Below the pieces are notes generated by a model, which was given only the letters and a program-made list of their open reading frames with translations, had not been told where the DNA came from and made no database searches. Shown one piece after another: positions 2,364-64,000 of a stretch of DNA of 64,000 nt. Origin of the DNA: Asterochloris sp. CNOR1 (taxonomy: Eukaryota > Chlorophyta > Trebouxiophyceae > Trebouxiales > Trebouxiaceae); NCBI GenBank assembly GCA_963969365.1, contig OZ017746.1, forward strand, positions 4,278,001 through 4,342,000, written 5' to 3'. Every line of letters starts with the position of its first letter. Position 1 is the first letter of the stretch. The position numbers and the translations under genes are program-made.

Positions 2364-5300
2364 GTGCTGTCACTTCACTTCTCTCTTGTACAAATGATCG
2401 GCTGTGCATCACTCAACATGCAGCTTAGTAAAGCCCCCTTAGGGGCCCCCTGCTTATGTCAGCTGTGCTTGATTGACAGAAGGCCTTTGGCGATCCTCTC
2501 TCCCCAATCGCATCAGCACAGCTGCAGGAGCTCTTGCAGTTTGAGAACCACCAAAAAGTCAGCCAGGCTCAAAGCCCTCACAGCTGGCACCACATCTCTT
2601 GTCAGAGCGATGGCAGCATCGAATGAGCAGCAACCCAAGGTTGGCTTTGCAGGCCTGGTAAGGCATCTCCATCTTCTTTGACCGTGAGCTAATGGCAGCA
2701 ATGTCAATGTCCCAACGACCCTGCCTGCAGGGCATCATGGGCCTAGCAATGGTGAGCGCATTTGCGGCAGGCAATTCAAGTACATGTGCTGCAGAGATGC
2801 ATGTCCTTTAAATAATATGTGCATGATGCAGGCAAGAAACCTTATTAAAGCTGGATATCCTGTGACTGTCTGGAACAGGTCCAGCAGCAAGTGCGAGCAG
2901 CTGCAGTCAGAAGGCGCGCAGGTGAGCTGCCCGTATTGCTGTTCCTTCGCCCTTCAGCCGGCCCCAAGACACGTCTTGCACCACCTTGTGACTGATCCAG
3001 TCCCAAGATGGGTGTGCAATGGCAAGCTTCTGCCATCTGCTCGGCACAAGCTCTCTGCTGTTGTGTGCTGTGTTCCCACCTGTGTCAGGTTTAATTGGGA
3101 AGAGAGAGGCAGCAGGCGGAGTTGAGGAGTTCCCCAATCTGCAGGTCGCTCCCACTGCAAGAGCTCTTCGTCCAGCAGCGCAGCAATACTCCGCGCATCA
3201 TTGTAGCCTCCCCTGACATGCTGCAGGTGGCCCCCACAGCTAAGGCACTTGCGGAGCAGTGCGAGATCGTGCTGGCCATGGTTGCAGACCCTGAGGCAGC
3301 GCTGCAGTTGGCCACTGGCCCGGACGGCATTGCCGCTGGCATGGGCGCTGGCAAGGGCTATGTGGATGCCTCCACCATTGATGCTGGCACAGCTCAGAAA
3401 ATCAATGAGGTGAGCATTCACAGCCACGTTGAAGTCATGTTGAATCCCACAGACATCCCTGTGGGACTGTCCAGTGCAGTCTGTGGCGCTGGCTCTGCCC
3501 AGTCCCCTGGTGGGCACCAGTTGCTGAAGTGCTGCACCACTGCAATGCGTCACAGCTGCATGAGGTGCTGCACCATTGTCATCCCTCACAGCTGCATGAG
3601 GTGCAGCACCACTAAGGTTCCTCACAGCTGCATGAGGTGCTGCACCACTGTAATGCCTGACTCCCTCACAGCTGCATGAGGTGTTGCACATCCAGACGCG
3701 CATGATGATTGCAAAGGCCACTTCAGCCATGAAGCCCCTGCCTCTGGCCTTGCCTCTGGCACTGCCTCTGGCAGCAAACAGCCTGCTGTCAAAGCGCCTG
3801 ATTGTGCTTGCAGGCCATCACAGCCACAGGCATTGACTGCTTGGCCGCATCTGCTGCTGACAGCGAGCCCCTGCGGTCAAAGCGACTGCCTGATTCTGCA
3901 TGCAGGCCACCACAGCCACAGGAATGGACTGCTTGGAAGCTTCTGTTGCTGACAGCGAGCCCCTGCTGTCAAATCGACTGCCTGCGTCTGCATGCAGGCC
4001 ATTACAGCGTCAGGAGCCCAGTACTTGGAAGCCCCTGTCTCTGGCAGCAAGCAGCCTGCTGAGCAGGGGCAGCTCATCTTCCTGTGCGGCGGCAGCAGGG
4101 AGCTCTTTGACAAGAGCATCCCCCTGCTGGAGGTCATGGGCAAGGCCCAGTTCTTCCTTGGGAAAGTGGGCAACGGCGCCAACATGGTGCGTTGTCTGAC
4201 CTCAGTGAATCTCTGGGGGCACAGGGCAGTACTGCTACTGCTCTCCTGAAGACACCTTGCATTTGCAGCCTGCAAGCAGGTGTCGGCGCAGGTTATGGCT
4301 GCTCTCCTGCAGACGATTGTGCATGCAGCATGCAAGCAAGTGCGGGCTGTACAGGCTGCAGGACGCAGCCCAGCTGGGCAGCCGCCGCCGCAGGGGCAGC
4401 TCAAGAGCCTACGCCTTGCCCGCTTTGTCCACAGGTGCAGGCATCTTTGCCGTGGCCTACGAGCCACCAAAAGGGATCAAAGGAACCCAGGCCGGCATGA
4501 CGCTCTGCCTCAAATTTGGCTGACTCATCTGATCCGTCTCGCCCTGCCCTGCCGCTGAAGCCGATCAGCCTGCAAACTTTGGCTCACCCCTGCTGTGAGC
4601 TGGGGGGTGTAGAGCCCAGGCAGCAGATGTGGGCTGGGCAAGCTGCAAAAGTGAGGCCTGCAACCGCTTCTGGGAAAGGGCGGGAGCCCGGCCATCACCA
4701 GCTGCAACGCTGCAGGCAGGGCCAATTGCAGCGGTGACCGGGCATGCAGAGGCTTGGGCATGTCCCGACTGCATGATGCTCTGCCTCAGGGCCAGAACAG
4801 CCCTGGCCATGCCTGATGCGCAGGTGTGCCCGCCCTGTTGCAGGTTGACAAGCTGGTGAGCTGCATGATGGTTGGCGCCAGTTGAGCTGTGGCTGCTGAA
4901 CTTGGTGGCGTGTCCTGCTGCAGAAGCTGGTGGTCAACAAGCTGATGGGAAGCATGATGGTGGCCTTCTCAGAGGCGCTCGCCCTGGCAGAGGTGTCGGG
5001 TCTGCAGCAGAAGGACGTCGTCGAGATTGCTGGCCTTGGGGCTTATGCTGCCCCCATGTACAAACTGAAGGCAAGCTCTTTCTTGGATCTGACTCAGTTG
5101 CCTGCTTGTGGGAAGCCATCAAACGGACTTGCAGGCTGGTGTGCAGCAGGGCCTATCAACTTTGCTGTGTCCTGCTGTCCTGCTTCGCAAAACATTGTTG
5201 TTGTTGCCCCACACAAAAGTGGGGACACCGGGGTGTGCCTGTATCCCCTGCTTGTCTCAGTCGTGGCTTGCCTGTCAGCAGGAGGGGGTTCCCAGGGTTC

Positions 5301-5815: not shown

Positions 5816-5918
5816 AGGAGTAATGCCTCTGGACTGATAGGGTCAGAAGCGGTGGGAAAGTGCTCTCGCTGCATTGCTTTCACTCTAGCCTCTAGATTGC
5901 CGCGCGTTGTACAAGCGA

Positions 5919-6584
5919 TCAAGCCTTCTCCTCATCTTTGCTGCCTCCTCCCATGCGCATTGCAATGGCTCCCACAACCAGTTTGCTAGACCTGCTGCCC
6001 AGCTCATGTGCTGTCTTGAAGTAATCATCATTCACCAGGTCCTGAGCAACTGCGGTTGAAGGACACCGCAGAGTGACTGAATGAGTGCCCTGCAATGAAG
6101 TCACACAACTGTGTGACCGACTGCTCAGGTGCAACCACCCAAAAGAATGGCTTACCTGTTGCTTGTTCCTGCTTATGGGTCCCAGCACAATGTTACTGCT
6201 CTCAAACTTCGTGCTGGAGAAGTCAAAGTGCTGTTGCACTGCCAGTGGATGCCAGTTCATGGGCAGGCTTGAGGCCACCACCTGCAGCAGGAAGCATCTG
6301 GTATGAGCTGACTGCAAGGGCACGGGGAAAGTGTTGGCGAGCATGCATGACCTCAACTAATCACCAGGCATGGCAGTGAACAGGCAGCTGCCATCAGCCC
6401 AGAGCAGTCAGCAGCCAACTTCTGTCGGACCAACGTCGTACTCTTTGAAAAGCTATCCTTGTGCCTCACCTTCACGCCGTGGTCCAGGTCCTTGCGCTTC
6501 TTGCCGCTGCCTGTCAGGCCATGATGAACCCTCTGGGGGCTGTACTCCTTGCGGGGCTGCTGAAGCTGCACTTTTCTGGTAGGC
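5919..6584 (-). CDS. Unrecognised small protein, 3' part (three exons)
   Basis: Exons on the minus strand: 6584-6470, 6281-6156, 6041-5919, with canonical ctgcag and ctcag acceptors, GT donors and compatible phases. The sequence reads PTRKVQLQQPRKEYSPQRVH (basic), then VVASSLPMNWHPLAVQQHFD, later NKQQDLVNDDYFKTAHELG, and ends GGGSKDEEKA. The first exon begins in phase 2, so at least one upstream exon is missing; a frame between 6600 and 6790 on the same strand could supply it but no join was convincing. I do not recognise the family. It converges tail-to-tail with GLYR, with 103 bp between stop codons. Confidence 0.55.
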
Positions 6585-6945
6585 CTGCAGGCATAATGGT
6601 GGGGCGCAGCTTCAAGCTTGTAGATCTGAAAGTGTGCTCCCTGACAAGTTTCAGCATGCCACTGCCCATGTCTGTGGGTTGCGGATCGCCTCTCGGATTA
6701 CAAAATAGACGTCCCAGCATGAAGAACCTCCTATGTCCGCACAGTGCCGGTCTCAAAGGCGCCCTGACCACTACGTCGGACAACCATTCCAAAACCAGGT
6801 TGAGCCCTGAGAGGGGCTAGCCTACTCAGGGTCAACAGGAATGAAAGAGGTGCCCCACTTTAGGTGCAACTAGGCCTTGTTCATCCTACGTGTCAGCCAG
6901 CAGCTTGAGACACAGTGCTTCAAGGGCAGGCATTGCCCTGGACGT

Positions 6946-8132: not shown

Positions 8133-11100
8133 ATGGCACAGACAGAGGGCAATGCAGCCCCTGGGACTGCCCCAGACGAGCAGCCTGATTCCATGGCGCC
8201 TCAGGTGTTTGACGGCAGGGGCTACCTCTGGATCCCAAGAGGTGAGTGCCATATGCCTGCTGTTCACTGCTCTGCGCACCGTCACATTGTACAGCCAAAC
8301 TCCATATCACATGCCACCCGGCAACTGCAGAGGCACGGTGGATGCGGGAGAAGTGTCGTATGGTTGGTGCCACAGTGGGCGGCGTGGCAGGTACACTGCT
8401 GCGTCCACAAAGTGAGGCCCCGCCTGTTGTGATGCCCACAAGTCAGCCGATCTGTCTGCGTTTTGCTGTGCCTGCTTTGCCTGGGCACAGCCACAGTGCC
8501 GCCTCTCTGGCCAGCATGTCTCCTGCTGAGCACCAGCGTGTGCACAAGCCTGCTAACAACAGTCTTCGCATGTACAGGCTACCAGGCGCAGAATGCGGTG
8601 ACTGGGCTGCCCCTCCAGATGTGCGCTGAGGAACTGCGGCTGGCAGAGAGCCAGGGTCAGTGCTGCTGCCTTCCCCTGGCCTACATGCTGTCGGCCTGCA
8701 CATTTGTGGCACCCAGCACCCATTGCCCACCGCTCCCAAATGTTGACCTTCACCGACATTTAGCCTTGTCAGCTATTTTGGCAGCCACATTCATGCAATG
8801 CTGGGAGCACCTACAATCAGGGCCCTTGCCCAAATTTCCCTGGTCTTCTCACTGAGTTGTCAGCATGGTTCATGGATTCACCAGCCATGGTGCCTTGCTG
8901 CGAGCACCTGTTTCCAGGCTCATTGCCTCCTGAACCAAGGTTCTTACCAGCACCAGACTGTCAACCCCTACCCTACGGTCAGCAGCCACACCGTTCTGCT
9001 GCGAGCACCTGCAACCAGCATCATTGCCCCGCCTTTCCCAGACTTGCACCTCCACCAAGCAGTCAGTCTTGTCCATTGCTCCAGCAGCCATGGCCCTTTG
9101 CCGGGAGCATCTTCAGGCAATGAGTGTTTGTGTGGCTGTTGCCATTGTCACATGTGACCTTGGCCAGGCATTGGGTGAGCTGACAGGAGAATCCCCTTAT
9201 CCCGTTTTTGAGGTTTGCCCTCATGAAACTGTTGGTGGCTGCAGGCTGGCTGAGGGATTACAGCGCTGCAGACCAGCAGGCAAGTGCCAGCAAGTGGGAG
9301 GCAGTGGCCCAGAAGGACGATGCAGTGCGGGCAGCTGCCAATGCAGGTGAGCGTCTGCTCACGTTGCATCACTGACTGCTGATTGGCGCAGCTATGGGGT
9401 GACCAGCATTGTCCTCATGCATCATGCATCTGCAGTCGCCTGGCGAGCACTGGGCAGCTGCCGATGCAGGTGCCGAAGTGCTCATGCTGCATCACCGGCT
9501 GGTGGTCTGAGCAGGACCAACACTGTCTGTGTGCATCCTGCAGCAACTTGGCGAGCCTGCTGCGCACACGAGAGACTGCTGCAGATGCAGGCATTGGCAG
9601 GGCCGCAGCTGCATGCATCTCTGAGTTGTGCCAGATGAGCATGCACTGATGTATTTTGTGTAGCATATCAAGCCCGCAGGGGCTTCATCTTTGCTGACTG
9701 TATCACGCCTCATGCCTCATGCAGAGCTGGCAGCCGCAGCTGCAGCAGAGGCCGCCACTGCTGCAGCCAAGGCAGCTGCCGAGGCTGCAACACCCAAGGA
9801 AGCAGATGGCAAGAGATTGAGCGGGGATGTGGACGGCAAGGACACAGAGAAGAGGGCAGCAGAGGAGGCTGCCCCTGCACCTGCTCCCAAGCGTCCAAGA
9901 AGCGGGCCGGGGCAGTTTGCCATTGAAGCAGCCGAGGAGGAGGGAGCGCGAGCTGCAGGGGAAGGGGCCTCTGTGGCGCAGGGGCCGGCCAATGGGGAGG
10001 CTGGCGCTGCCGTGGCTGATGGGGATGAGGGCGCACAGGACGACCAGCCGCAGTGGCTGCACAAGGTGAGGCCAGCAGGGAGTAAGGGCGGAAGGGCTTG
10101 GCGCGGCTGATTTTGACAGGCGGTACTGGTGTCACTGCGGGGCTGACCAGCTGCAGCATACATCTAGATTGGCTGCATGTGGGCAGCGCTGCTACATGAG
10201 GTAGTGCTGCTGGTGTGGTCTGGGCGCAAGTGCAAGGGCTGGGCCGCGCCAGCACAGCCGCAGAAGGGCTGTGCAAGGCAAGGCCAGCAGTGAGAGTTTT
10301 CAGTTTTGCTTCACTGCATTGCCGCCCTACACTTGCCCTTGCCACTGCCATCTGCAGCCACAAGCATGGGTGCTGTTGTTTGAGGCTGTCGGCAGACTGT
10401 GCCCAGCCTCCAGGTCGATTCTGCAGCTTGAGGGCTGCCTTTCTGTTGCTGCAGGGGCTGCTGATCGGGCAGAGAGGCTCTATCTGCCCTGATGGGCTGC
10501 AATGCCTAAGCTGCAGTACCGCCTGCAGAAACCACAGAGCAACATGCCTTGCTTGCTAAATGCAGGTCAAGCGCAAGAAAATTCTGCACCTGCCAGTCTA
10601 CCCTACAACCTCAGAGCCCATTCCAGACTCTGTGTGGCTGCAAGAGGATGCTGCAGAGCCCAAGGCGGCGGACACAGCCATGGCTGCAGCAGATGAGCAT
10701 GTGCGCCATTTTGACTGCGCCGAGTCCCGTGCTGTCACCTTCCAGCGTGTGCACGAGAAGGGGTGAGTCTGGGGGCTGTGTCATGCAATCAAGGCGTGCT
10801 TGGAGCCGGCATGGGCTGTGCTCACTGTCACAATGTGTGGCTTGCCTTCCAGTGGGTGCTTGAGAGAAAGAGATGAGGTGAGACAGGGGGGCAGGACTGC
10901 CTCCCGCACTGTGAGCTGTAAGCATGCCCACTGTATGGCTGCCTGTCAGCATGATAGGGTTGAGCTCATGTCAGCGCTGCATACTTTGGGGCATGTTGCT
11001 TGACGCTGTCCACCCCGGCACCTCACACCCCGGCCAGCACTTGGGCGCATGTGAGCGTTCGGTGCCTGCCCAGTACACTGACAAGGATTGAACAATGAAT

Positions 11101-11871
11101 GAGGCCACATGTGCAGCTGCATCTTGCCCTCTGTTGGTGGTGGCCAGCACCCTGCCACCTGCAGCACCAACGACTGACAGCACTGCAGTTACTCCCTCAC
11201 CAGTGGCTCCATCTCCAGCCACACTCGGGCCCTCCTGTTGAGCTGGCCAGCATCTGCAACACAACCTGCAGCCGCTGTGATGCACTGCTGCAGATACTAC
11301 CTCACCAGTGGCTCCAAATTTGGGGCAGAGTACCTGGTCTACCCTGGGGACCCCTTTCTGTTCCACGCCCAGTTCACAGGGCACCTGGTCGACGAGAGCG
11401 AGGTCCTGCGGCCCTGCCTGCTGGCTGGGACGGCTCGTGGCAGCCACTCGGCGCGCAAGCACCTGCTCTTCCTCATCAAGGGCAAGGTGAACTGGGAGCT
11501 GGTCTTCCCCGCCAGACGCAGTGTCAGCCAGTTGAACTGTGGCATGGCCCAGTTGGTGTTGGCACAAGCAGCAATGTGTGCATGAAATCATGCTGCCATG
11601 TGGGCAGCTACATGAACAGCACAAAGCCCTGTTCTTCCATTCCTGCTTACAGCTTGCTCTACCTGGTTGTTGAGGGATGCGCTACGCTGCGATGCCTTGT
11701 GCAGTGCCTGCAACAGCATTTCTTGCAGGCGTCACAGCATTGCTTGCTGCCATGCAGGATGGCAGCCACTCTCCCGATGGGCTGAAATACCTGTCTTTTG
11801 CACCGGAAGCTGGGTTTGGGACGGCCTCTAAAGACGAAGATGCTGACAATGCTCAAAAGGAAAACCCCTAG
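8133..11871 (+). CDS. SEN34: tRNA-splicing endonuclease subunit SEN34 (catalytic)
   Basis: Eight exons: 8133-8241, 8331-8390, 8578-8655, 9245-9346, 9725-10065, 10566-10762, 11294-11486, 11758-11871; 1194 bases, 397 aa. The N-terminal domain (REARWMREKCRMVGATVGG, then QNAVTGLPLQMCAEELRLAE) matches the SEN34 N-domain. A ~140-residue Ala/Glu-rich linker with the basic patch PKRPRSG (a possible nuclear signal) follows. The nuclease domain carries FGAEYLVYPGDPFLFHAQF and later SARKHLLF, which supply the Tyr-His-Lys triad of SEN2/SEN34 enzymes, all present. It then ends DGLKYLSFAPEAGFG plus an acidic tail. The enzyme is expected to cut precursor tRNA at the 3' splice site as part of the SEN2-SEN15-SEN34-SEN54 tetramer. 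The last acceptor (11757) was chosen over an upstream one at about 11728 because only it keeps the frame. Confidence 0.92.
8781..9115. repeat. Four degenerate ~101-bp tandem units in SEN34 intron 3
   Basis: Copies begin at about 8781, 8881, 8982 and 9084 (steps of 100, 101 and 102 bp). Each starts like gcagccaca or ccagccatgg and continues tgcgagcacct or a variant. Unlike other arrays here I could not tie the unit to an exon edge. Confidence 0.7.
9325..9592 (+). repeat. Tandem copies of the 3' edge of SEN34 exon 4 (~122 bp, x3)
   Basis: Exon 4 ends gcagctgccaatgcag at 9346, followed by gtgagcgtctgctcacgttg. A copy ends gcagctgccgatgcag at 9469, followed by gtgccgaagtgctcatgctg. A weaker third ends ctgctgcagatgcag at 9590. 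Steps are 123 and 121 bp. The second copy keeps a GT after CAG and so is a possible decoy donor. Confidence 0.8.
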
Positions 11872-36732: not shown

Positions 36733-36813
36733 GCCAGCCCTAGCCTGCCTTGGGCTCTGCATATGTGTACGTCATGAAATATCTCACGAATGCAGCAGAC
36801 ACACGGCAGGCGA

Positions 36814-42137: not shown

Positions 42138-42169
<32 letters not shown>

Positions 42170-45499: not shown

Positions 45500-45543
45500 A
45501 GTTGTTCTGAGTCACACTGAGAACGCATCCAGTCTGACAAGCG

Positions 45544-50733: not shown

Positions 50734-53700
50734 TGGAGGCCATCCCAGCAGTCTACCCACCACCTGGAGATCCTGCAAGGCGGGGCCTGCCTTCTAAGGG
50801 CCGCGCCCAGGATGGAGCCTTCCTGCCCCCCTTGTCCCCTGCAAACGCAGATGCCACAAAGGCAGATGGGCCTGGTGCAGATTCGATCTGGGGCAGAGGC
50901 GACCCAGGGCGGTCGGTGTTTGCGGACAGCTGGGAGTTGAGGGCGCAGCTGGAGGCGGTGGCCAAGGCTGCTGCAGGGGCCCAGGCCCTGGCTGCAGAAG
51001 CCGTCAAGCAGGTGACCAATGGTTTAGGGGGCTGTGACACTGATGGAAGAGTGTTGAGGGCAGAGCAGGGGCCCAGACCCTGGCAGACTGTCGTGCAGGT
51101 GCTTGGTTTGGTCTGCTGTGTGCAGCTGGGGCCGCAGCTGCTACAGCGCAGGCTGCCCCGCAGCTGGGGGCTTCCTGGGCCTGTAATCACTTGAGAGGTG
51201 ATGCAGGGGCCAACAGGAGCTGTCGAGCAGGTGTAGAGGCTGTCAAGTGTATCTGCCAAGGCAGAGGTCGAGACATTGGAGTAAGGCTGCTGTGTTGAAG
51301 CACATCAAGGTGCTGGGCACCGCCAGCTGTGAGCGCCATGCAGGTGTTCCAAGAACGTTGCCTCATTGCAGAAGGCAGAGACACAGCAAACTCCAAGAGG
51401 AATGGTGGAGCACCCACCTTCCCAAGCTCTGCAGTTTGGCTCCTGTCAGCAGCCTTAAGACCAGCAGTGCTCCCATGCTGACCACTCTGAGAGTGGATGG
51501 TGCATTTAGGCTTCCTGTTCACTGCCTCTGCAGCACCAGCCGCTGAAGCAGCCAGCAGACAGGCAGCCCCCATCTGCTGCAGGTGGCAGGCCATTCAGTC
51601 AAGATCTCAGCCCTGTCATCAGGGCTGGGAGGGGCCGACGCCATGCTGGAGGAGATGCGTGCACTTGGCCGCCAGCAGGCAGGGGAGCGCCAGCACCTCC
51701 ACCAACAGGTGTGCTGCAGTCCTGGGCTTGATCCAAGCGTCCATAGCTGAGCCCAGCAGGGTACTTAGTCCATGCCGTCGGCAGGCAAGAGGGCGCCAGC
51801 ACCTCCACCAACAGGTGTGCTGCGGCTCTGGGCTTGATTCCTAGTGGGGGTTTTGGGCCATTTCCCATCATTGACCAGCAGAGTATGCAATCCAGGCCGC
51901 TGGCAGGCAAGGATCCAACAGCACTGCCACCAGCAGGTGTCCAGCAGTCCTGTGCTTGATTCCTAGAATGTTTTCTGGGCAGTTTTGCATCATTGACCAG
52001 CAGAGTATACGATCCAGGCTGCTCGCAGGCAGGGGAGCACCACCACCTCCACATGCAGGTACGCTGCCTGCAAATGACAGGTGCCATCTTGCATGGTGTT
52101 GGGCTGCACAGCGCAGCTCTGGGTTCAGGACCAGGCGCACATCCCTGAACGGCTGTTGTGCTCGCCAGGACCTGACCGGGTAGCGCCAGCACCTCCACCA
52201 GCAGATCCGACATTGCCTGACAGCAGGCTCTCTGCATGTGCACCCTGCACCCTGTTGCCAGGCTTTGAAGCTCTGCCATGGCATGCTGGCTGCCTCGCCA
52301 TCCCTGACTGGCGGCCTACCTGACTGGCGGCATACCCGCTGGTGCTAAACAGGTGCCAGGAGCTGTGTCTGGTGGAGTGATGCGGGGTGCAGCTGCAGGT
52401 GGGTGCCCTCACTTTGGCCCCCCATAGCTGCTAGCCAGCACATGTTACAATTGGGTGACCCCTCAGCCACATGGTGTTGATCTGCACACAGCTGATGTCG
52501 AGTTCATTGCCAGTCCTGTTGTACTGCCGGATGGCTACGAAGAGGACACACCTCAGCCAGATGGAATCGCCTGATGTCTTGCCCACAGCTGCGTTTGACC
52601 AATTTCACAGAGCCATATCAGGTGGCAGCCTTCATGCACTGCAGGTGGCTGCCCTCACAGATGCCCTCCAGCGCTCGCAAACGGAGGTGGCTGAGCTGCA
52701 GCACCTCCAGCAGTCGACTGCCCAGCAAGCCGCGGAGAGTGCAGCTGAGGTGCGCCGTCTGGGGGGGGCCGTGCAGCAGGCCACCGCCAGCAACGCTGCA
52801 GAGCTGCGCGCGCAGGAGGAGCAGGGGGCTGTACTGCGAGAGGAGACCCGGAAGCGGCAGGTGGGCAGCTCCAAGAGTCTGGCCCTTTGAGGGGACAGGC
52901 TTGGTGTGTAGTGGAAGAGGGGGGCGTTTGGGAGGGACACTGGTAGGTGGGCAGCTTGAACACATTGGTCGCCTGAGGGGAAGGGGTTGCTGTGATGGAG
53001 AAGAGGGGGTTTTGGGAGAGACATTGGCAAGCCGCTGGCATGGGTCAGACAGCTGGCGGGAGCAGACTTCATGCAGTGTGGCGATGCACAAGTGTGACTG
53101 CGCCCAGGCATGGCTCGTACTTCTGGTCATGCTGAGCTGCGGCACAGGAGGGCAGGCTGAGGGGAGTTACGCGTAGAGCCAAAATGGCTGCAGCATATTG
53201 CAGTGCATGCTTGGTCTGTCCATTCCGCAAGGCCTGATGCAGGCTTTGCTGCAGCCGGTTGACTTTGGCGAGCTCCCTGTCCTGGATATCTGATGCAGCT
53301 TGTGGCCGCCAGGGAGCCTGCCAGGTGACAATGACCTCACCACAACTGCTGTGCACCACAGCATGATTGTGCGAAGGCTGCTGTCACCATGTGCAGGCTG
53401 CTGTCACTGCTGAAGGTCTGGCCCAAAGCACAGATGTTGAATTCTGGAAAGGGGAGGCTTGTTCAAGCAGCTGGAAGCAGCCTGGTCCGTGCAGGCTGCC
53501 GTGAGGAGGTGCTGGCTCTGGGCATTGATGTGCATTTCTGCAGGGAATAGGCTCCTTTGAGTGGCTGACAGTAGCCTTGTCCCCGGAGGCTGCTGTGCTT
53601 GCAGAGGTGCTGGCTCTCCACTGAAATGGAACGCTGGAGGGGAAAGGCTCCTTCAAGGGGCTGACAGTAGCCTGGTCCCTACAGGCTGCTGTAATTGCGG

Positions 53701-56700
53701 AGGTCTGGCTCTGGGTCCTCATGTCAGCTGCTGGAGAGTGGAGGCTCCTTTGAGCAGCTGACCAGTAGCCTGGTCACTGCAGGCTGCTGTGATCGCGGAG
53801 GTGCTGGCCCTGGGCACTGATGTGGAGCGCTGGAGGGGGGAGGCAACTGCAGCCCGCGCTGAGATCACTGGCGCAGTCGACCGCCTGGCCGCACGTGTCC
53901 AGGGGGATGAGAAGGTGGGCAGTCAAAGCCCAGAGGGTTTGTGCTGGGTGGCAGACCTGCTGATGGGGGCAACAAGCAGTGAGCTGCAGCAGCTTGCTGT
54001 CTGTGCTGGGTCTTTGGAGGCTGTTGTGGGCGTGGGTGGACAGGACTGCACCGTTTCCAGAAGGCCCACTTACAGATCATGAGAGCTAGAAGCTTGTGCC
54101 CCAACAAGGCAGCTTGCAGCAGTGCCTGGTCTGTTGCTGCTGGACACCCAAAAGGTTGGGCAAAGCATGTGCCTGTGTGGAGCTGTTGCCCGCTTCCATG
54201 ATGAAGTTGACAAGCCTTGTCATCTGCTGGGCAAGCGGTGTTGGCCCTGCAGCAGGCTGGTCAGGCTTCAGGCCCCGGTACTTCTGCTTGTTTCCTGCTG
54301 GGCTGCAGGTGTTGGTAGCCCTGCAGCAGGCTGGCCAGGCTTCAGGCTCTGGAACTTCTGCCCGCCTGGACAGCCTACAGGGAGAGCTGGGGGACGCGCA
54401 GCAGGCCCTCGCGCAGCAGGCACAGCAGCATGCCACCGAGAAAGCCTCCCGCTTACAGGATGCAGCTGCCACTGCCAGGAGGCTGCAGGTGGGGTTCCCT
54501 GCAAGCTTGTGCACAGTGGCTCATGTGTTGCATTGAGTCCGCACCCAGGTTCCTGCTGGCGCTGGTTGCCATGTTGCTGCCAGGCTCAGGACTGCCAGAC
54601 ATGTGCCAAGCTGAAGGCATGCAGCTGCCGCTGCCAGGAGGCGGCAGCTTCTACTTGCCAAGAGTGGTGGCACTTTGATCAGGCAGTGGGCAACCAGAGA
54701 ATTATCTGACGGGAGCTGCTGCAGCCTTTGGAGGCAGTAAAGGCAGCACTGACGGCTTCAGAGACGTGTGCTGTCTGCAGCCCGTATCTCTGCGCTGCGA
54801 GCAGCGGTGGCCTGTGTGTTCAACCAGCAACCGGTACACTGTCTGAGAGGAGCTGCTGCACCCTGTGCAGGCAGTGGAGGCAACGGTGGCGGCTGCAGAG
54901 GACTCTGCCGTGCGCCGCAGCTTGCAGGCGGTGGAGGGGCAGGCAAGCGAGGTCAGAAGGGCCCTGCAGGCCCTCAGGACTCAAGTGGATGGCCTGGACA
55001 GCGCCAACAGGTGGGCTTCAGTGGTCTTCAGGGGGCCAGCATTCGAGTGTTTTCACATAAAAACCCTGCAGGCTCTGAGGACTCTGGTGCAGGGAATAGA
55101 CGGCACCAACAGGTGGGCTTCAGTGGTCTTCAGAAGGCTAGCGTCTACGTAGTCTCAGAGAGGAGCCCTGCAGGCCCTCGGGACTCAAGTGAATGGGATA
55201 GCAGCATCAACAGGTGGGCTCTATACCCTTCGTTGGGGCAGAGCAACATTGCAATGTTAAACGCCCTACAGGCCCCCAGGACTCGGGTGGATGCAATGGA
55301 GAGCACCATCATGACAGCATGGGCTGAGATGCACCTTTGCAGGGCAGCAGCAGGGGCTTTTGTATGAAAAGGCGGGCTCAAGCCCAATGGTGCACAAGAT
55401 TGCTGAACTGGCTCAACAAGTGGTGTGCACATGCAGGCAGGAGGTGGCCGATCGGCTGTCAGCCCTGGCTCAGGCAGACTCTGGGCGCACCCAAGAGCTC
55501 TCTGCCAGGCAGGACGCCCTGGAGCGTTCCCTGCGAGAGGTGGGCGCTAGCTGCCTTTCACACAATTCTGCACAAAGGCATGTCATCTCACAGGGGCTCA
55601 GGATCAGTCAGCCGGTGTCAGTGCAGCAGCAAGTGGCTTCTGGGGCCTGCTCAAGCCTCCAAGCCGTGCTCCTGTCATGGCCTGCATAGCAGCCCAGCTC
55701 CTGCTCGACTGGTGTGTTCTTACATCGCAGGCTGGTACGTCAAGCTCCGCCAAGAAGCATGAACCACTGCTGCCCATCTGTCAGGGCTGTGGCATGCTGA
55801 CACACCAGCATCATGCATTGCTGCTGCTCTGGGCTGTGTGTTGGATGTGGCCGTGTGGAGACAACTGGCCGCAGGGAGGTTCAGCCTGGATGCTTTCACC
55901 AGATATCTCAGTCACCACCCTTTCAGGCAGTATGACGCTGGCCTCCCCTCCTCCCAGCTGTTGTCAGGCCAGAGCATTTCCGCTGCAGGTTGCTGGCCTG
56001 GTGACAGCCTCCGACAGGACTGTGAGCCGCCGCGTGGATCTGGCAATGCATGAGCTGGCGGGGGCCATGGCAGATGACAGGGCCACTGCAGCAGTGAGTG
56101 CCTGCAGCTCTACACATTCCAGGCAGTCTTGGGCGGTATCTGGATGGCACAATGGCTCTGCTTTCAGTCATGAGCTGCCAGGAGCTGTGGGTGGGGAGAG
56201 GGTTACTGCAGCAGTGGACAGCCAGCAGCTCTGCATATCTGAAGCAATATTATGCATTGTCCGGGCAGCACAGAGCCTGCATCGGTTGCTGGCAGGGGGC
56301 TATGGCAGAAGACAACGCTGCTGCAGGCAGAGACTGTTGGCAGGTCTGCAGCTTTGACAGGGTCCTGTGAGGTGTGTGGATGGGTCAATGCCTGCACCAT
56401 GCATATGCTGGCAGAAGCTAAGTAGAGGGCCGCTGCTGAGTGACTGCTGGCAGCTGTCTAGTATTTTAGGTTCTTGTGTGTTTGTTGTACTGTAAGACTG
56501 GTGCTTCAACCAGCTGGGCACAGGTTGCACAGTTTGCAAGTTGAAACAGCTGCAACCCAGCAACCGATGCTCTTCATTTGATATGCTAAGCATCTGCAGG
56601 GCATGGTTCTGTGACTTGCCTTGCAGCGTCCTGCAGCTTTAGAGATCAGTGCTACAAATCAATCCAGCGCCCAACATGTTTGCAGCCCACAGGCAGCTGT

Positions 56701-59700
56701 CTGAAGCGCCACTGGAAGAGGAACATGAGGCTTGTCGACCATGACAGATTAAAACCCTTCTCCAGCGTCTTTACTCACAGATGTGTGGTGCTGAACAAGA
56801 CCAAAAGCTGCCTCCAAGCCTGCCTGCCTTACAGGCTAGGGCTGAGGAACTGGCTTTAAATCTGGCACCCTGGTCTTGCAGACCCTGTGCCGCTGGCCAA
56901 CAGCTGCAAGCTGTTCTTTTCCCCCTATAACCTACAGGCTAGGGCTGAGGAACTCGCGGAAGACCTGGCATCGCTGCAGACCCTGTGCCGAGACGTGGAG
57001 CAGCACAGCGAGCAGATGCACGCCCGACTGAGCCACAAGCTTCAGGGGGAACTCCAGGTGGGGCACAACAGGACTGCAGCCCTGATCTGCTCTGGGCTCA
57101 GGCAGCGTCATGGATCTCATAAGGGCACTGGCTTGACTGCTTCCAAGCTGGCGGGCTGCCGTTGATGTGGAGATCTGGATGTGTGAAAGCTGGGAAACCC
57201 TTGATCCTCGGGCCCCCCGCCCGGCAGGAGCTGGTGCAGCTGCAGCGCCAGCAGGCTGAGGATGCCCCATACTGCAGGCAATTGGCTGAGCTCTGCCAAC
57301 CGCCTGGGCTGCCCACTTGACCAGCTCAAGATCCCTGATTGATTCACTTGCGTCCGCTCTGCAGGCAGCTGGCAGAGTTACCGCCGAGCGTCTGGCTGCC
57401 CACACAGACCAGGCCCGGCAGGAGATGGTGCAGCTGCAGCGCCAGCAGGCTGGGGACGCGGCTGAGGCCGCAGAGCAGGGCGAGCTGCTGCTGGCCGGGC
57501 AGCGGGACATCTGGGATGCAGTGGAGAGCCAGCAGCTGCAGTTGGAGCAGCTGAGGAGGGAGCTGGCCGACTCCACTGTGGAGCATGTGCTGCAGGTTAA
57601 TGGGAACCTATGAGCCCAGGGTAACAAGCGCCTCATGTCAGACCAGAAGTGTTCTGAAGCTGACCTGACTTGTCTTCAACTGTAGCAAAATGCAGGTTGG
57701 CTAGTGCCTGATGCAAAGGTGCTCTGAATGGGGCTGCAAGTTGTGCTGAGTGTGAACGCTGGAGTTTTGCTGGCAGGGCGGCACCAACTGCAAGAGAGGC
57801 AGCAGCTGCAGCACAAACAGCTCACAAAGGCGCTGGCTGTCTGCACTTTGGAGCATGTGCGTCTGTTTGGTAGGGCACTGGCCCCCAGTGACTTGCTGCC
57901 AGGTCATTTCCAGGTCATTGTCAAGACTCCAGCAGGGTACACAACGGCAGGTCAAGCTGAACGGCCATGAGGCAGTTGTGAGAGCCCAGATGCCGCGTGG
58001 ACATGCAGCATCTGCTTGCATACACCCTGCAGGACAGTGTGGCCAAGGAGGACACCGGTGACAAGCTGCGCGCTCTGGGACAGCATCAGTAGCACAGCCA
58101 CCGGCAACATTCCTTGTGTGTGCCCTGCTAGCTGCGCGCTCTGGTAGAGCGCGTCAATAGCACAGCCACCGGCAGCATTCCTTTTGTGCGCCGTGCAGGA
58201 GAGCTTAGCCAAGGAGGACACCGATGACAAGCTGCACGCCCTGGGGGAGCGCATCCACAGCGCAGCCGCTGCAACGGCTGCAAGGCAGCATGCCAGCATG
58301 GCAGAGGCGCAGGGGCAGGTGCAAAGGCTGACAGCCCGCATGGACCAGGCGCATGCGCAGGCTGTGAGTCAGCAAGAGGCTGCTGCACAGGCAGTGCAAA
58401 GCCAGCTGGCTCAGCTTCTGCAAGAGCTGCAGGAGGATGTGGCAGCTGTCAGCCAGGATCTTCAGGTGCAGCTGTGTCCCTACGCCACGGTGCACTGAGG
58501 CTGGTGCTTCCGCGTGGAATGCTGTCATTACTGGATGTTTCAGGGTTTCTGGCGTGAGTCTGCCCGTTGGCTGCGGCCTACCTTGCGAGGTGGCAGCCTA
58601 TGTGAGTGGGCCCTTGCTGAGGTGTGCCACATGGGCCCTAGGCGATTTTGCGCCATACGCAGGACATGAATACCATCAGCAAGGTGCTTCAGGTCAGCCG
58701 CTGGCTGCACGAGTGTGGTATGCAAGGGCGTCTGTGCATGGCTTACTGATGGCGTGTCGCTTTGCAGGTCGTCCTGGCTGCTTGCTGCCCCAGCTCTGGT
58801 ACTGTGGCTGGCAGATGGACCTAAGCTTGCTGCTGTGCCTGCAAGCCTTTCTCTGCCTGGTTGCTGGTAGGGGGGTCTGCGACAAGCTGTGTCAGCCATA
58901 GGCACCCAGCAAATACAACACCATTGGCATCATCTTGCGTCAGCTACAGGAACATAGCAAGATCATTTACAGCAACAGCTGACATCACAGGCTACTGCCC
59001 ACTGAAGTCCCTGGGAGTGCTTAAATTTGCAGTCCTGTACTGATTATTTTGTTTGTAATGAGTTTGCAAGGCCATGCACCTCCAACGCTGGCAGAGATGG
59101 TACTGAGGCAGTTGTTGCTGTCCAGACATGTGCACCGCCAGGCTTTTCTGGAACGCTGCTGAGAACCCCTGGATGCCTGATGCAGGCCCACAAGCAGGCA
59201 ACTACTGAGAAGGTGGGCGAGACAGTGCGCCAGCAGAGTGCTGCTGCAGCAGCCAACCAGGCACAGCTGCAGACCAGCCTGCAGGCAAGTCACCCTGTGC
59301 CCCCCAGTCGCCAAATGGTGGCGGGCTTGATTCTGTTACATCCCACCAAGCGGTTGCCTCCTCCTCCTCAGCGCCCAAATTCTGGCTCACCATGCCCTGC
59401 ACCTGGCTGCCTCTCTGCAGCAGGATATGCTGGCATGCAACATGCTACAGCTGACAGTGAACGAGCTGCGATCAAATTTTTTTAATTAGCCTGGCACCAC
59501 CCCTGTCCAAGACATTAAGCGGCAGTTTGTCTGCTGCTGCTGCTGCTGCTGCAGGGGCTGCAGCAGCAGGTCCAGGATCTTGAGACGGCAATGGCTCAGG
59601 AGACTGCTGTGCGGCAGCAGGAGGTTGTCGATGCCAAGGTTGCCACCGAGCGCAGCCTGCAGGTAAGCAAGGTCATTGATTTGCATGTGCCTGCAGTTGA

Positions 59701-62700
59701 ATAGGCTATTCTGCAAACCCTGCACACCCATTAGGACGCAGGCCTGCAGCACTGTGGCTGCTCATGTGTCTGCCTGGCACCAGTGGAGTCAAGGCACACA
59801 ACTATTTACTGCAGGCTGTGCAGACCCACCTGGAAGCTGGCCTGCAGCACTGCGCTGCTGATGTGAAGCTGGCAGAGGAGCTGCTGCGTGCTGAGCACGC
59901 TGTGCAGGACCAGGCGGCATGGGATGCTGCGGAGCGCTTGGCAGCACAGCAGCATGAGGTGGGGTGGCGAGAATGTCCCCTGCATGGAGCTTGCAGGGCC
60001 ATGTGTAGCAACAAATGCGTACCCGTTCTCTGCATCGTTTGTGTGTTCTCTGCGCGCAGAGCAGAGCCACACAGGCTTTCCGACTATTCCAGCCTGGGAA
60101 AGGGTGTGTTGTTGGTTGCGTATCCAGAGCTGCCAGAGGTGGGTTGGCAGGTTTCGCAGGGGGCCCAGCCCGGGTAAGCCTGATATTACCCTGTGAACCT
60201 GTGCTGAGAGATTGTCAAGTATTGATTACCCTATGCCTGTGGCAGAGCAGTATGTCCTACCATTGCCTGTTGGAGGTCCATCCCTGTTGGGGACCAAGGG
60301 TCGTCAGCAGCCATCACTATCTACCCGCCTGCATCCACGGTGATGCAGAGGGACGCCCAACACGTCCGCTGGGGCAATATGATGAAGAAGCCAAACAAGA
60401 ACACTGCTGCAAGCAACCGTCAATGGTACCTGTGCAGGCGCTGGCTGAGTCTCGAGCAAGGGCAGATGCCCTGGCAGCGTCCCTCAAGGGCACCCAGATA
60501 TCAGTGCAGAAGCTGGAGCAGGAGGTGACTCATGGAGAGCAGCAGCGTGAGGAGAGGCAGCACACCTCAGCCCAGGTGTGGGCGTGCAGCAGAGTTGCCT
60601 GGGCTGCACATGCACCCTCCAAGTGCGGCACATACCTGTTCCATCTTGGCAACATCCAGCAGTACACCTCAGCCCAGGGGTGTGCCAAAATTAAAACGTC
60701 TCCAGAAGAGGGATGTGTTTACTAGACCCACAGATGGCCAAACCGGCAGTCACTGTATTAGGTGGTGCTGTGAGCCGCCAATGCCTGGATTGTTGGGCTT
60801 TGAGAAATAATGTCGCTGGCTTGTGTGGATTCTACGCGAGCCTTGCATGCTGCTGGCAGGTGTGCAAAAGCTAGGGGCGGCCTGCATGGTGCAAGCCTGC
60901 CATGCGTCAGCATGGTGAACAACATGTGGCGAAGCTAGGGGAAAGGAAAATGACTGGGTCGCCTACAGGCAGGATTATGGCTTCCTGCTGTAGGCTGTCA
61001 CTGTCAACATCCTGGGGTGCCTCACTAAAGGAGTGGTGCAGCCCCGTTCAAGCCTGTTGATTGCCGAAGCCGTCACTTTCCAGTTGCCGGTCAGTCCTGC
61101 CCTTAAGTACATTGACCTGAGGGTTTTGCTGCAGATGGGAGAGGAGCAGCTGGCTCGTCTGGCCGCCCGAGTGCAGCAGCAGGCGGCAGCGCAGGCAGAC
61201 CTGCAAGCCAGCCTGACGGGGCAGCTGAGGCAAGTCGGCAAGAATTTTTCCAGATTGCCTTCTGGGTGAATCAGGGGTTGTATGAGTATGCGGTCCACAT
61301 ATTGGACTTTGAACATGCTGCCATGCAGCATTCCAAACAGGCAATCAGCAGGCGGCAGCGCAGGCTGGCCTGCGTGCCAGCCTGGCGGGGCGTTTGAGGC
61401 TGGTTGCTCAGGCGGAGCCTGACTGCACTTCGTGCGGCCACTTGCTGTGAAGTTGCGGCCCTGACCAGAGCACACTGACGTGCTGGTGTCTCATGTTCTG
61501 TTTGTCCGAAGGAAAGGCAAGGGGTCAGCAAGCTGCCTGGAGCCTCTGCTACCAACCCCTACTTACATGCTTATGTCTTACACTGTGTGATCCCGGTGAC
61601 ATGCTGCCTGTGGCTTGCGTGGCACAGCAGAGGCAGCTGCAGCAGATTTGCTGACATCTGCTTGGTGTTGTTTGCTGCAGGCAGCTGCAGGAAGCAGCAG
61701 CAGCGCAGTCTGAAGCTGCCAGTGCCCAGTCCGCTGGTCACAGGCAGGACATGGCTGACCTGCAGCAGCAGGCAAGGCCGTGGGTCCTCCTCCTCTGCCA
61801 TCCTTTTTGGCATGCACTTTGCCCAATGTGAAACCTGTTGATCTGGGAGGGCAGCTGCTGTAGGGCTTCTTGCCCTGCCCGCCTTCAGTCAAGGGCTACC
61901 GCAGTCATTGAGTGTGTTCATGTGTACTCTAGGCACCTCCGCATGTTGTTCCTGTCCAGCTTTGGACCTGCGAGCACCCACTGACCACAGGTCTGCACAG
62001 GACTGAACTCTGCGGCCACACTACACCATGGTTCAGGATGTGCACCTGTCTCCCTCTGCATGTGAGCAGCTTGTGAGATATGCATTCTGTGCTCAGGACC
62101 TTACGGGATGGCACTGCAAGGTGCTTTCCTGACGTGACATCTGTCTGCCTCTGCCTGTGCACTGCTCATTTGAGCCTCCTGTGACCAGTGCCGTCCCTGT
62201 GGCAGGCAGCCACCCTGCAGGAGCAGTTGGCGGCCATGGCGCCCGCCAGCAGCCTCCTTGAGGTGCGGCACCAGTTTCAGGCTCTGACTGCTGACTTGGA
62301 AGGCAGGGCCCCAGGGAGTGCGCTGCTGGAGGTGCAGCGGCAGGTGCAGGCCCAGGGTGCACAGCTGGCAGCCCTGCAGCAGGCTGAGCAGATGGCTGCA
62401 GCTGCTGCCTTGCTGGAGGTGCAGCAGCAGGTGCAGGCCATGGCAGGCCAGGTTGCTGCTCTGCAGCAGGCTGAGCAGATGGCTTCAACTGTTGCCTTGC
62501 TCGAGGTGCAGCAGAAGGTTCATACGCTAGACGCCCAGGTCGCTGCCATGCAGCAAGCACAGCAGGCCAGCACTGAGGATGGAAAGCGGGCAGGCAGCCA
62601 GGTGCAGGCAGTGGCAGTCGAACTGGCTGCCCTGCAGAAGGATCAGCAGGCCAGCGCTGAGACACGGCGGCAGGCAGGCAATGAGCTGGCACAGCTGCAG

Positions 62701-64000
62701 GAGCAGGTGCAGGGTCTGGGGCGCGACCTAGCGGTGTGGCGGGAGCGGCAGCACATGGTTGCGGGGATGACCAGTTCAGAGCAGGTGAGTTGCTCTGCAG
62801 ACTGTACACAGCATGCGTGGCAGTTGTGGCGGGAGTGGCAGCACAGGAGCTGTGGGGATGAAGCAGGTGGTTTGCCACCAGCGTGTGACAGTTCAACTCT
62901 CTGGTCTTCTTGAGCTTCTTGAGCTGGAGTGAACTGCTGCAGCTGGTACTGCAGGCATGCCCAGGGGTTGCTGTGCTTATCATGGCACCCTCTGCTGGCA
63001 CAATGGATGCCAGAGCAGCAGCAAGCCTTTTAAAACTGGCCCTAGCTTGGATGATCTGGTGTAGTGTTGGTCAAGGTTCCACCTGATGGCCCACTGCTTG
63101 CCAGAGTGGTGTTCAGCCACCGACTGGCCTTGACAGGTCTGACGCTCGTTGCTTGGTGCAGGCTGAGCGGACCGTGCAGGTGGAGAGGGCACTGCGGGAG
63201 GTGCAGCAGGCAGTGGAGGCCGTCCAGGCGCAGCTGCCTCTCCTGGTGCAGGCACAGCTCCAGGAAGGCCTGCCCAGGGTTCAGGTGCATTGCAGGCGCA
63301 CTGTTGAGGTGCCTGCATGGCTTGTCACTCTGGATGTGTGGGCCTGCGTGGCCTGAGCTACATCTGCGACTGCATGCTGACTGCTGCAAGCAGCACCCCG
63401 CTGTCTTCAACCCTTTGAGAACATTGTGCACCCCAAGATGTGAGGTGCACTCCAAGTCAGACTGCGGAAAGCCCAGGCCTGCAGATAACTAAAGTCCCCA
63501 TGTGCTTCCTTTCCGTTTGCTACAGGAGATGGTGGCCGCCCAGGTGGAGGCCAGCCAGGGGAAGCTGGCGGCCCAGCAGGCAGAGGCGATGGCCAGCCTG
63601 CAGCAGCTGTGCGCAGCCACTGTCGGCGCCCAGGCGGCCACTGCTGCGGACCTGGAGGCTCATGTGTTGCAGCAGCAGCAGGCAGCTGCAGTAGATGCTG
63701 AGCAGGCGGCAGGCCTCAAGTCCCAGGTGGACGCCCTGGCCGCCAGCCTGGCAGTGCAGAAGGTCTCCTTGCAGGCTGCCCAGCAGCAGCTTGAGAAGAA
63801 GCAGGCCGACAAGCTGCACGGGCAGGCCGGCCTTCTGGAGCCCATGCAGGGCGCTCTGGAGCAGCTCGATGCGCTGCAAACCCAGGTAAAGAGGGCCTCA
63901 ATCTAAACTCAAGCCATGTGGCCAGGCACATAGCTGCAAAAACGCCCTTTGACTACAGCTCCATGAGCACTGGCATTGTCCCAAAGCAGGTCACGCAGCA
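50734..64000 (+). CDS. Very long Gln/Ala-rich coiled-coil protein (partial, continues past the window)
   Basis: Exons: 50734-51011, 51583-51708, 52645-52860, 53783-53914, 54309-54488, 54871-55010, 55437-55539, 55989-56093, 56938-57057, 57365-57595, 58199-58465, 58663-58692 (tentative), 59186-59284, 59555-59662, 59815-59958, 60438-60575, 61135-61229, 61681-61771, 62206-62784, 63162-63284, 63526-63885. Except for the 54871/55437 and 61135/61681 joins, all are phase 0, so nearly any exon can be skipped without a frameshift. Introns after 59284, 61229 and 61771 use GC donors. More than 1,150 residues are coded here, almost entirely heptad-like and rich in Gln, Ala, Glu and Leu (for example LQAVEGQASEVRRALQALRT). 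The N-terminal part is Pro/Gly-rich. Exon 62206-62784 holds about four internal ~32-residue repeats. No motor, GTPase or membrane domain is visible. A structural role (Golgi, centrosome, nuclear envelope) is only a guess. Confidence 0.78.
51669..52204 (+). repeat. Five tandem copies of a 3' exon edge with donor sites
   Basis: The exon ending at 51708 finishes gcgccagcacctccaccaac ag, followed by gtgtgc. Copies of this end lie at 51814 (gtgtgc retained), 51936 (gtgtcc), 52058 (gtacgc) and 52204 (donor lost). Steps are 106, 122, 122 and 146 bp. Four of the five keep a GT directly after CAG, so four competing 5' splice sites are present. Confidence 0.88.
53397..53860 (+). repeat. Five tandem ~97-bp copies of a 5' exon edge
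   Basis: The exon starting at 53783 (AAVIAEVLALGTDVERWRGE) is preceded by copies beginning at 53397, 53495, 53589 and 53685 (steps 98, 94, 96 and 98 bp). Peptides such as AAVTAEGLAQSTDVEFWKGE and AAVLAEVLAL are still readable but are interrupted or out of frame. Most copies keep gcag or acag in front; the third has ggag. Confidence 0.92.
54238..54380 (+). repeat. Duplicated 5' edge of the exon at 54309
   Basis: The start GTGTTGGTAGCCCTGCAGCA at 54309 is matched by gtgttggccctgcagcaggc at 54238, 71 bp upstream. The following ~35 bases (gctggccaggcttcaggc) are also shared. A weaker copy of the exon's 3' edge (gcagctgccgctgccaggag) lies downstream at about 54618. Confidence 0.82.
54960..55320 (+). 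repeat. Four tandem ~102-bp copies of a 3' exon edge
   Basis: The exon ending at 55010 (RALQALRTQVDGLDSANR) is followed by copies ending at 55112, 55213 and about 55317; steps are 102, 101 and ~104 bp. The first two copies keep CAACAG|GTGGGCT, identical to the real donor; the last has atgacag without GT. The real downstream exon is at 55437. Confidence 0.92.
56045..56326 (+). repeat. Copies of the 3' edge of the exon ending at 56093
   Basis: The exon end catgagctggcgggggccat...gccactgcagca|gtgagt is repeated with its end at 56213 (gttactgcagca|gtggac, 120 bp further) and, more decayed, near 56325 (gctgctgcag|gcagag). The second copy keeps a GT, and the third has a GC that could serve as a weak donor. 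Confidence 0.82.
56835..56990 (+). repeat. Duplicated 5' edge of the exon at 56938
   Basis: GCTAGGGCTGAGGAACTCGC at 56938 is preceded 103 bp upstream (56835) by gctagggctgaggaactggc, with its own ccttacag acceptor. The copy runs on to cagaccctgtgccg, as in the exon, but contains an early stop. Confidence 0.92.
57208..57470 (+). repeat. Two partial upstream copies of the exon at 57365
   Basis: The exon's 5' edge is matched at 57278 (after actgcag), 87 bp upstream, by gcaattggctgagctctgcc. An internal segment (cccggcaggagctggtgcag, continuing ctgcagcgccagcaggctg) recurs at 57220, 194 bp before its exonic position at 57414. Confidence 0.85.
58033..58260 (+). repeat. Decayed upstream copies of the exon at 58199
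   Basis: The exon start GAGAGCTTAGCCAAGGAGGA is preceded at 58033 by gacagtgtggccaaggagga (after ccctgcag) and at about 58130 by a shorter copy of the region agctgcgcgctctggtagag. Each copy is followed by an agcacagccaccggca block that resembles exon bases agcgcagccgctgca. Confidence 0.8.

Follow-up and report, generated by a model that had tools for sequence, protein, structure and literature searches.

Exon-edge copies in the introns of a green alga as probable remnants of ordinary local tandem duplications

The window analyzed here, a 64-kb stretch of the genome of Asterochloris sp. CNOR1, carries local direct repeats at the predicted exon edges of its GLYR, SEN34, and LON genes, of a minus-strand coiled-coil gene, and of its last gene, as the first-pass annotation had pointed out (Table 1). 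These repeats raise the question of whether a dedicated process copies exon borders into introns, or whether duplications that fall irrespective of gene structure are most readily recognized at exon edges. We favor the second answer, with a probability of about three in four: the arrays would be the remnants of ordinary local tandem duplications that were filtered by selection and placed without special regard to gene structure.

The sample, which comprised the window and 260 kb of the same genome (324 kb in total), was scanned for arrays by self-BLAST and by a separate ungapped search, with order-3 simulated sequence as the control. Exon edges were taken from a gene finder trained on the sampled sequence and were checked by homology in some of the genes. 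Some of the predicted exons are false, which inflates the edge counts. The ungapped scan returned 104 arrays of local direct repeats, including 36 within the window, but none in the simulated sequence; self-BLAST yielded 54 arrays across the 324 kb, 27 of which lie in the window. Hits near the diagonal are dropped by blastn, and the self-BLAST arrays include no step below 60; steps below 50 occur in 18 of the 104 arrays from the ungapped scan. The step distribution peaks at 80–89 bp, although this is partly a detection effect because short units escape detection once divergence is higher. The range of 70–125 bp originally proposed for most steps fits 21 of the 36 window arrays but only 41 of the 93 arrays in the whole sample that involve noncoding sequence. 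The best-preserved arrays consist of full head-to-tail units, for example two 86-bp copies at a step of 86 that are 87% alike.

Table 1. Positions of repeat arrays in the 64-kb window; exons and introns are as predicted.
Gene	Array	Positions	Strand	Remark
GLYR	three copies at ~89-bp steps	3762..4061	+	last copy is acceptor and start of exon 3998-4186; upstream copies intronic
SEN34	copy of 3′ end and donor of exon 9245-9346, step 123	9329..9504	+	
SEN34	exon 11294-11486 with acceptor and exon start copied in intron, step 105	11183..11316	+	
LON	84-bp array wholly in intron, without exon edge	20086..20367	+	
LON	copy of 3′ end of exon 23910-24106, step 125	24060..24234	+	exon end in linker outside homology
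minus-strand coiled-coil gene	acceptor-side copy of exon 27278-27400, step 79	27338..27488	-	
minus-strand coiled-coil gene	step 102	32062..32216	-	99-bp intron 32105-32203
	biggest array of the window, 83-bp unit, ~6.7 copies (TRF)	39810..40424	+	
last gene	~106-122 bp units with short segment, acceptor-like and donor-like ends	51667..52067	+	
last gene	4-5 units, ~98-bp steps, around exons 53544-53606 and 53783-53914	53391..53844	+	
last gene	acceptor-side copy of exon 54309-54488, step 71	54216..54361	+	
last gene	~2.7 units, 102-bp steps, around exon 55134-55213	54955..55311	+	
last gene	donor-side copies of exon 55989-56093	56049..56326	+	one reaches acceptor of same intron
last gene	copy of interior of exon 57365-57595, step 194	57219..57459	+	
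last gene	donor-side copy of exon 57365-57595, step 270	57524..57860	+	
last gene	copies at 66- and 167-bp steps, up to exon 58199-58465	58005..58267	+	
last gene	donor-side copy of exon 61135-61229, step 169	61177..61400	+	
last gene	87-bp (29-codon) repeat within coding exon 62221-62784, frame kept	62324..62555	+	

The phenomenon had been described as window-wide and as present in most multi-exon genes, and in this respect its distribution is narrower. The last gene, which encodes a coiled-coil protein, holds 19 of the 36 window arrays on its own; elsewhere, 17 of 48 predicted genes have an edge copy in one or more of their introns. Introns with edge copies are correspondingly uneven in their spread (14/28 in the last gene, 37/543 in all other genes), and the last gene is a hotspot of duplication. 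Nor do all arrays involve an exon edge: the LON array at 20086-20367 is confined to a predicted intron, and another, at 12389-12618, coincides in part with a reading frame for ankyrin repeats.

At a score threshold of at least 34, a copy of an adjacent exon edge was detected in 51 of 571 predicted introns. Both edges are affected, as originally stated: the end of the preceding exon is copied in 29/571 introns and the start of the following exon in 26/571, and these frequencies far exceed the rates of 0.0006 and 0.0003, respectively, that were obtained with unrelated introns. Homology backs the exons beside the copies in GLYR and SEN34 and, among genes outside the window, in MCM5. In GLYR, the alignment to a PDB entry runs without a gap over the exon start at residue 94, and in SEN34 the PF01974 match (residues 285–357) covers the junction at residue 296, both junction residues being derived from predicted exon lengths. 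For the minus-strand coiled-coil protein, no homolog was found at an E value of 0.001 among the 7998 candidates scored.

The similarity does not stop at the splice site. Among the 32 of 55 copies taken into an intron-extension test, donor-side copies continue to resemble each other in the intron with a mean score of 8.6, against 0.43 after re-pairing (21 cases), and acceptor-side copies with a mean score of 11.9, against 2.6 (11 cases); 0 of 200 re-pairings reached the observed extension score on either side. The copies are thus local and head-to-tail with the splice site inside the unit, as expected of a tandem duplication across an exon–intron border. Such border-crossing duplications are common on donor and acceptor sides and must add to intron length, so the proposal that introns here have grown in this way holds. 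Median intron length is 441 bp with copies and 264 bp without, although longer introns are also larger targets.

A simple sequence of events could generate this pattern. Local tandem duplications, with steps mostly of 60–330 bp, would land irrespective of gene structure, the DNA step being, for example, slippage or the filling-in of staggered breaks, and selection would retain those that leave the protein unchanged. A duplication spanning only one exon border would be tolerated at any unit length because splicing can continue to use the border that adjoins the exon body; wholly coding duplications would be retained only as multiples of three, and intronic ones at any length. The spare copy left in the intron would then decay while selection holds the exon copy, so that exon-edge pairs would stay recognizable for longer than intron–intron pairs and edge duplication would appear to be the rule. 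The steps are divisible by three in 8/8 exon–exon arrays, compared to 8/32 intron–intron, 10/28 intron–border, and 7/25 exon–intron arrays. Those of the intergenic arrays (three) and exon–border arrays (three) are likewise all divisible by three; the three intergenic arrays are perhaps coding repeats missed by the gene prediction.

The alternative that fares best is a splicing- or transcription-linked process that specifically copies exon borders into introns, in keeping with the shared process first envisaged. The share of arrays that involve an edge is 0.73 (56 of the 77 arrays with a step of at least 50, after removal of four exon–exon, three intergenic, and two exon–border arrays). Simulations that placed duplications uniformly, let selection act against coding ones, and made exon copies decay more slowly gave 0.52–0.67 over six settings; the observed share lies above all six, and clearly above the flat-age ones. 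Since uniform placement nearly reaches the observed share and leaves a small excess, an edge-specific process may exist but is not needed. A probe test in long introns, which covered 90 of the 571 introns and exons of at least 100 bp, also bears on this alternative: exon-edge probes matched in 12/125 cases and tiled intron probes in 20/724, a ratio of ∼3.5, against a simulated lifetime ratio of only 1.4–1.6; intron probes adjoining the edges matched in 10/180. However, the intron portions of the units match too, 32 of the 104 arrays from the ungapped scan are wholly intronic and 8 wholly exonic, and the longer life of exon–intron pairs accounts for part of the excess. We therefore regard a border-copying process as improbable. 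Copies of exons in introns can give the impression of a dedicated process even where constraint on the exons, together with tolerance of duplications that span a border, accounts for most of the pattern.

Somewhat less probable again is that tandem duplication of proto-splice sites has made new introns here, as in the model of Rogers, for which a potato RdRp gene provides a described case (PMC4974935) and for which intron gain by tandem duplication has also been described in Drosophila (PMC2891723). In the cases as presented in those two reports, the tandem unit spans an exon border or includes AG|GT, as it does here; in contrast to them, the extra copy in this genome mostly lies within an existing predicted intron. 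The CAG|G shared by both borders, which had been offered as the basis for intron birth, is real (donors read CAG|GT and acceptors CTGCAG|G) and favors the model, but it is a mere precondition for intron gain. Flanks of donor and acceptor lying no more than 12 nt from register, at a score of at least 38, occur in 4 of 569 introns (0.00 expected), and in a further 9 of 569 the flanks resemble each other out of register (0.10 expected). One intron of the minus-strand coiled-coil gene, at 32105-32203, has its donor and acceptor in near register; its array is most simply read as an acceptor-side copy. The only zero-shift intron, with the exact register that is the classic mark of gain by duplication, is in MCM5, where the predicted protein scores 86 bits and a model with the other copy as exon scores 111 bits, a gain that does not come from the copy alone, as the second model was also hand-trimmed at the next exon. 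This intron is better explained by a donor-side copy with a wrong choice of exon, a likely error of the gene model, than by a gain through duplication. In the near-register WD-repeat case, the extra residues resemble, by eye, a copy of the exon start. For the suggestion that introns arise by these duplications, no convincing newly made intron was found among the 569.

Some or many intronic copies could instead be alternative, mutually exclusive exons under selection, which we judge more doubtful still. Of the 55 copy alignments, 29 are gapped, and in 26 of them at least one gap has a length that is not a multiple of three, so frame-shifting gaps affect 26/55 copies; the earlier statement that copies lose their reading frame holds to this extent, but only 2 of the 26 ungapped copies contain an in-frame stop, leaving 24 free of one, and a few copies were called as exons by the gene finder. 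The values for the three codon positions are 0.138, 0.135, and 0.181 in intronic copies and 0.168, 0.175, and 0.206 in exon-internal repeats (seven repeat pairs). The two patterns are not clearly unlike, and the equally weak bias of the control means that this test is no proof of neutrality of the intronic copies. For GLYR and MCM5, the alignment of the protein to known structures uses one copy only, which argues against alternative exons, as does the low retention of donor GT. Border retention was scored in 32 of 55 copies, namely those that come to within 8 nt of the splice site and whose exons and introns measure at least 40 and 120 bp, respectively. The donor GT survives in 8/20, against ∼12.5 expected from an identity of 0.79, and the acceptor AG in 7/12, not above the expectation from an identity of 0.77; frequent preservation of CAG|GT ends, as first reported, is not borne out. 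A first donor count gave 7/23 against 16.3 expected and is sensitive to alignment ends. Purging of decoy donor sites was considered, and the donor deficit is too weak for such a claim.

That dispersed introner-like or transposon repeats were inserted into introns is very improbable. The repeat units do lie in introns and have splice-like ends, but they match the adjacent exon rather than the introns of other genes, the window contains no far repeats above 60 bits, and no one element was found in the introns of many genes, a result that extends genome-wide for three arrays. In a search of the 56-Mb genome, which skips very common words, the units of these three matched only themselves and their neighbors; the unit of the biggest window array (39810..40424) found further copies only adjoining that array, and the unit at 51667..52067 matched that place only.

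Within-gene duplications that take in splice sites have reportedly been described before; the present ones differ in being dense in one sample of a genome, mostly old, and concentrated in one hotspot gene. In rice, insertions of 10–1000 bp are described as wholly or partly tandem duplications of neighboring sequence, much like the arrays here, and inaccurate break repair is the hypothesis of the authors for their origin (Vaughn and Bennetzen, 2014, as recounted in PMC7407515). That mechanism belongs to the rice study and may apply to the present arrays. Green algae have tandem repeats that are densest in introns and more frequent near intron ends (PMC3887541), a resemblance in both lineage and placement near junctions; the survey was limited to units of 1–50 bp and, among green algae, to Chlamydomonas and Volvox, unlike the arrays treated here. 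Among the matches listed from a partial coverage of the literature, no paper described such arrays in this group. If the pattern were true genome-wide, it would offer a natural series for studying intron lengthening and the tolerance of genes to duplicated splice sites.

The process had also been thought to look still active, and the ages of the copies speak against this. Of the 41 of 104 arrays with a step of at least 50 and a best ungapped segment of at least 40 bp, just one reaches an identity of 0.90 and none reaches 0.95; the highest, 94% over 47 bp, belongs to the array at 57219..57459 in the last gene. Best segments of at least 0.95 occur in 13 of the 104 arrays, 12 of them shorter than 40 bp and the other 43 bp at a step of 29. 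Longer young copies are nearly absent, and the longer duplications that can still be detected are probably for the most part of older date. We tentatively entertain, without holding it probable, that a past burst of ∼100 bp tandem duplications lengthened introns genome-wide and nearly stopped, leaving decaying decoy splice sites in 51/571 introns, with donor copies perhaps purged and half of the introns of one coiled-coil gene hit. A repeat-directed mutation process as the cause of the missing young copies was rejected: there are 186 transitions to 171 transversions, and no excess of GC-to-AT changes was seen (0.092 per GC site and 0.146 per AT site). Gapped alignments add three edge copies of 47–50 bp at identities of 0.91–0.94.

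Local direct repeats are abundant in the sampled sequence. Self-BLAST of 324 kb recovered 54 arrays, 27 of which lie in the window, and an ungapped scan, sensitive to short steps as well, recovered 104 (36 in the window and 68 elsewhere), whereas order-3 simulated sequence yielded no local direct hit by self-BLAST and 0 arrays in the ungapped scan; the tandem arrays described in the first-pass annotation are thus borne out. The comparison set comprised 260 kb of the same genome, taken as 26 stretches of 10 kb from eight contigs, and array density was 0.56 per kb in the window versus 0.26 elsewhere. By the location of their two copies, the 104 arrays are intron-intron (32), intron-border (28), exon-intron (25), exon-exon (8), border-border (5), intergenic-intergenic (3) and exon-border (3). 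The genome totals 56.4 Mb in 21 contigs with a GC content of 0.578, and the window (OZ017746.1:4278001-4342000) lies 133-197 kb from the contig end. An extract of the published account of the lichen alga Asterochloris gives 56 Mb, 56-62% GC over 98% of the genome and ~9 introns per gene (PMC6652019), values with which the size, GC content and intron richness seen here agree.

Exons were predicted with a simple gene finder self-trained on the sampled sequence, which returned 49 genes with 620 exons; the 571 predicted introns have a median length of 274 bp. Homology backs much of the window genes GLYR and LON; for SEN34, a DUF1350 protein and an Alba protein the backing covers parts of the sequence. 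Errors also come to light in this way: GLYR carries extra stretches missing from the best structures, SEN34 and LON are fused into a single predicted gene, and some repeat copies are called as exons. The self-trained consensus is CAG/GTGAGC for donors and CTGCAG/G for acceptors (slash, splice site), the latter very strong across the whole sample, with T 0.91, G 0.94 and C 0.97 ahead of AG.

Introns carry copies of the exon edges beside them. At a score of at least 34, the end of the preceding exon recurs in 29 of 571 introns (unrelated-intron rate 0.0006) and the start of the following exon in 26 of 571 (0.0003), so that the proposed matching of adjacent exon edges holds against control introns; 51 introns contain an edge copy of either kind, counts that hinge on the gene models. 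The copies are local, and three units queried genome-wide matched only themselves and their neighbours in a search that skips very common words. They are also tandem, because intron sequence past the splice site is still alike between copies, with mean scores of 8.6 versus 0.43 for re-paired sequences on the donor side and 11.9 versus 2.6 on the acceptor side. The reading frame is gone in many copies, and 26 of 55 contain a frame-shifting gap. Mismatches are nearly even across codon positions (109/791, 107/792 and 141/779); exon-internal repeats, the coding control, are equally even (23/137, 24/137 and 28/136), and the test therefore cannot part neutral from coding copies. Copies had been said often to keep their splice ends, yet retention of GT (8/20) and AG (7/12) is no better than overall identity predicts.

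Three filters, namely opportunity, selection and detection, suffice to account for most of the link to exon edges. Since introns and exons are short, a duplicated unit would often span a border: a single border fell within 1343-1397 of 4000 random placements, and two or more within a further 291-349. Selection would act on duplications within coding sequence, and steps are divisible by three in 8/8 exon-exon arrays versus 8/32 intron-intron arrays. Finally, a constrained exon copy would keep an exon-intron pair recognisable longer; in simulation such pairs stayed visible 1.4-1.6 times as long because of this constraint, and detection was several times better at the highest divergence simulated. 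With uniform placement and these filters, the predicted edge share is 0.52-0.67, versus 56/77 (0.73) observed, a modest excess of which false exons could be the source. The raw probe comparison counts against an account by filters alone: rates were 12/125 for exon-edge probes versus 20/724 for tiled intron, a gap exceeding the lifetime ratio alone, and 10/180 for intron beside edges, 6/88 for exon-internal and 5/231 for intergenic probes.

To the first-pass annotation the process looked still active, which the ages do not support. Among 41 arrays with a step of at least 50 whose best ungapped segment spans 40 bp or more, identity reaches 0.90 in one and 0.95 in none, whereas simulated units of at least 50 bp at 5% change per copy were detected in 96-100% of cases; from the detection table we estimate that a constant duplication rate would place ~40% of detections at such a young age. 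Short high-identity segments are present (13 of 104 arrays reach at least 0.95, and identity is 0.91-0.94 in three edge alignments with gaps, each 47-50 bp long) and may be the best-preserved bits of older arrays. Repeat-directed mutation bias was looked for in the copies and none was seen. Duplication in this sample is inactive, or far weaker than formerly. A past burst is the bolder reading, drawn from 0.6% of the genome, because young longer arrays are nearly missing and the mutation bias is unseen.

The coiled-coil gene at the window end holds 19 of the 36 window arrays. Edge copies occur in 14/28 of its introns versus 37/543 in all other genes (Fisher P 5e-9), the second-densest predicted gene having 7/31, and its exons match their own introns in 16/56 comparisons versus 9/1404 for non-adjacent introns. 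A chromosome-end effect on this gene is possible.

Coordinates of features in the window and on sequences L018 and L020 outside it
Feature	Position	Step	Remark
Last gene (coiled-coil)	49847-63906		
MCM5 predicted intron	L018:419-498		80 bp; zero shift
MCM5 gene stretch with spare copy of an exon 3' end	L018:342-585	89	donor decayed
Near-register predicted intron	32105-32203		
Near-register predicted intron	56094-56326		
Minus-strand coiled-coil gene	26561-33386		
Ankyrin-repeat reading frame	12389-13007		between SEN34 and LON
Ankyrin-like repeat array	L020 ~6033-6617		by eye
Predicted gene	34254-36732		Alba domain
Predicted neighbour gene	38506-40109		opposite strand

The suggestion that introns may arise by such duplication found no established case. 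When donor and acceptor surroundings were compared in 569 introns, four were alike within 12 nt of register at a score of at least 38 (0.00 expected) and nine more out of register (0.10 expected). The sole zero-shift intron, in MCM5, is better explained otherwise: against the best MCM5 chains in PDB the protein scores 86 bits with the predicted exon, whereas with the other copy as exon it scores 111 bits with an alignment continuous through the junction, in a model whose next exon was also hand-trimmed to a TGCAG acceptor. Under this model the remaining copy is a spare exon end within an intron. A near-register WD-repeat intron resembles a copied exon start by eye; two further near-register introns lie in the window.

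Tandem duplications that cross an exon border are already known, and extracts of earlier work ascribe new introns to them (PMC4974935; PMC2891723); an extract on rice attributes short tandem duplications to faulty break repair (PMC7407515); here, the duplication mechanism is one that we infer. In two other green algae, tandem repeats crowd near intron ends with units of at most 50 bp, according to the portion of that report consulted (PMC3887541), whereas the units here are longer. Our analysis adds this longer-unit case, evidence for a mostly old age of the longer units, and a filter explanation for the exon-edge association.

Neither a homolog at E 0.001 among the scored candidates nor a Pfam match at 0.01 turned up for the minus-strand coiled-coil protein. 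The ankyrin-repeat frame (Pfam Ank families) lies inside a predicted intron and short exon, and the L020 array reads like it. The Alba-domain gene and its neighbour look alike by eye.
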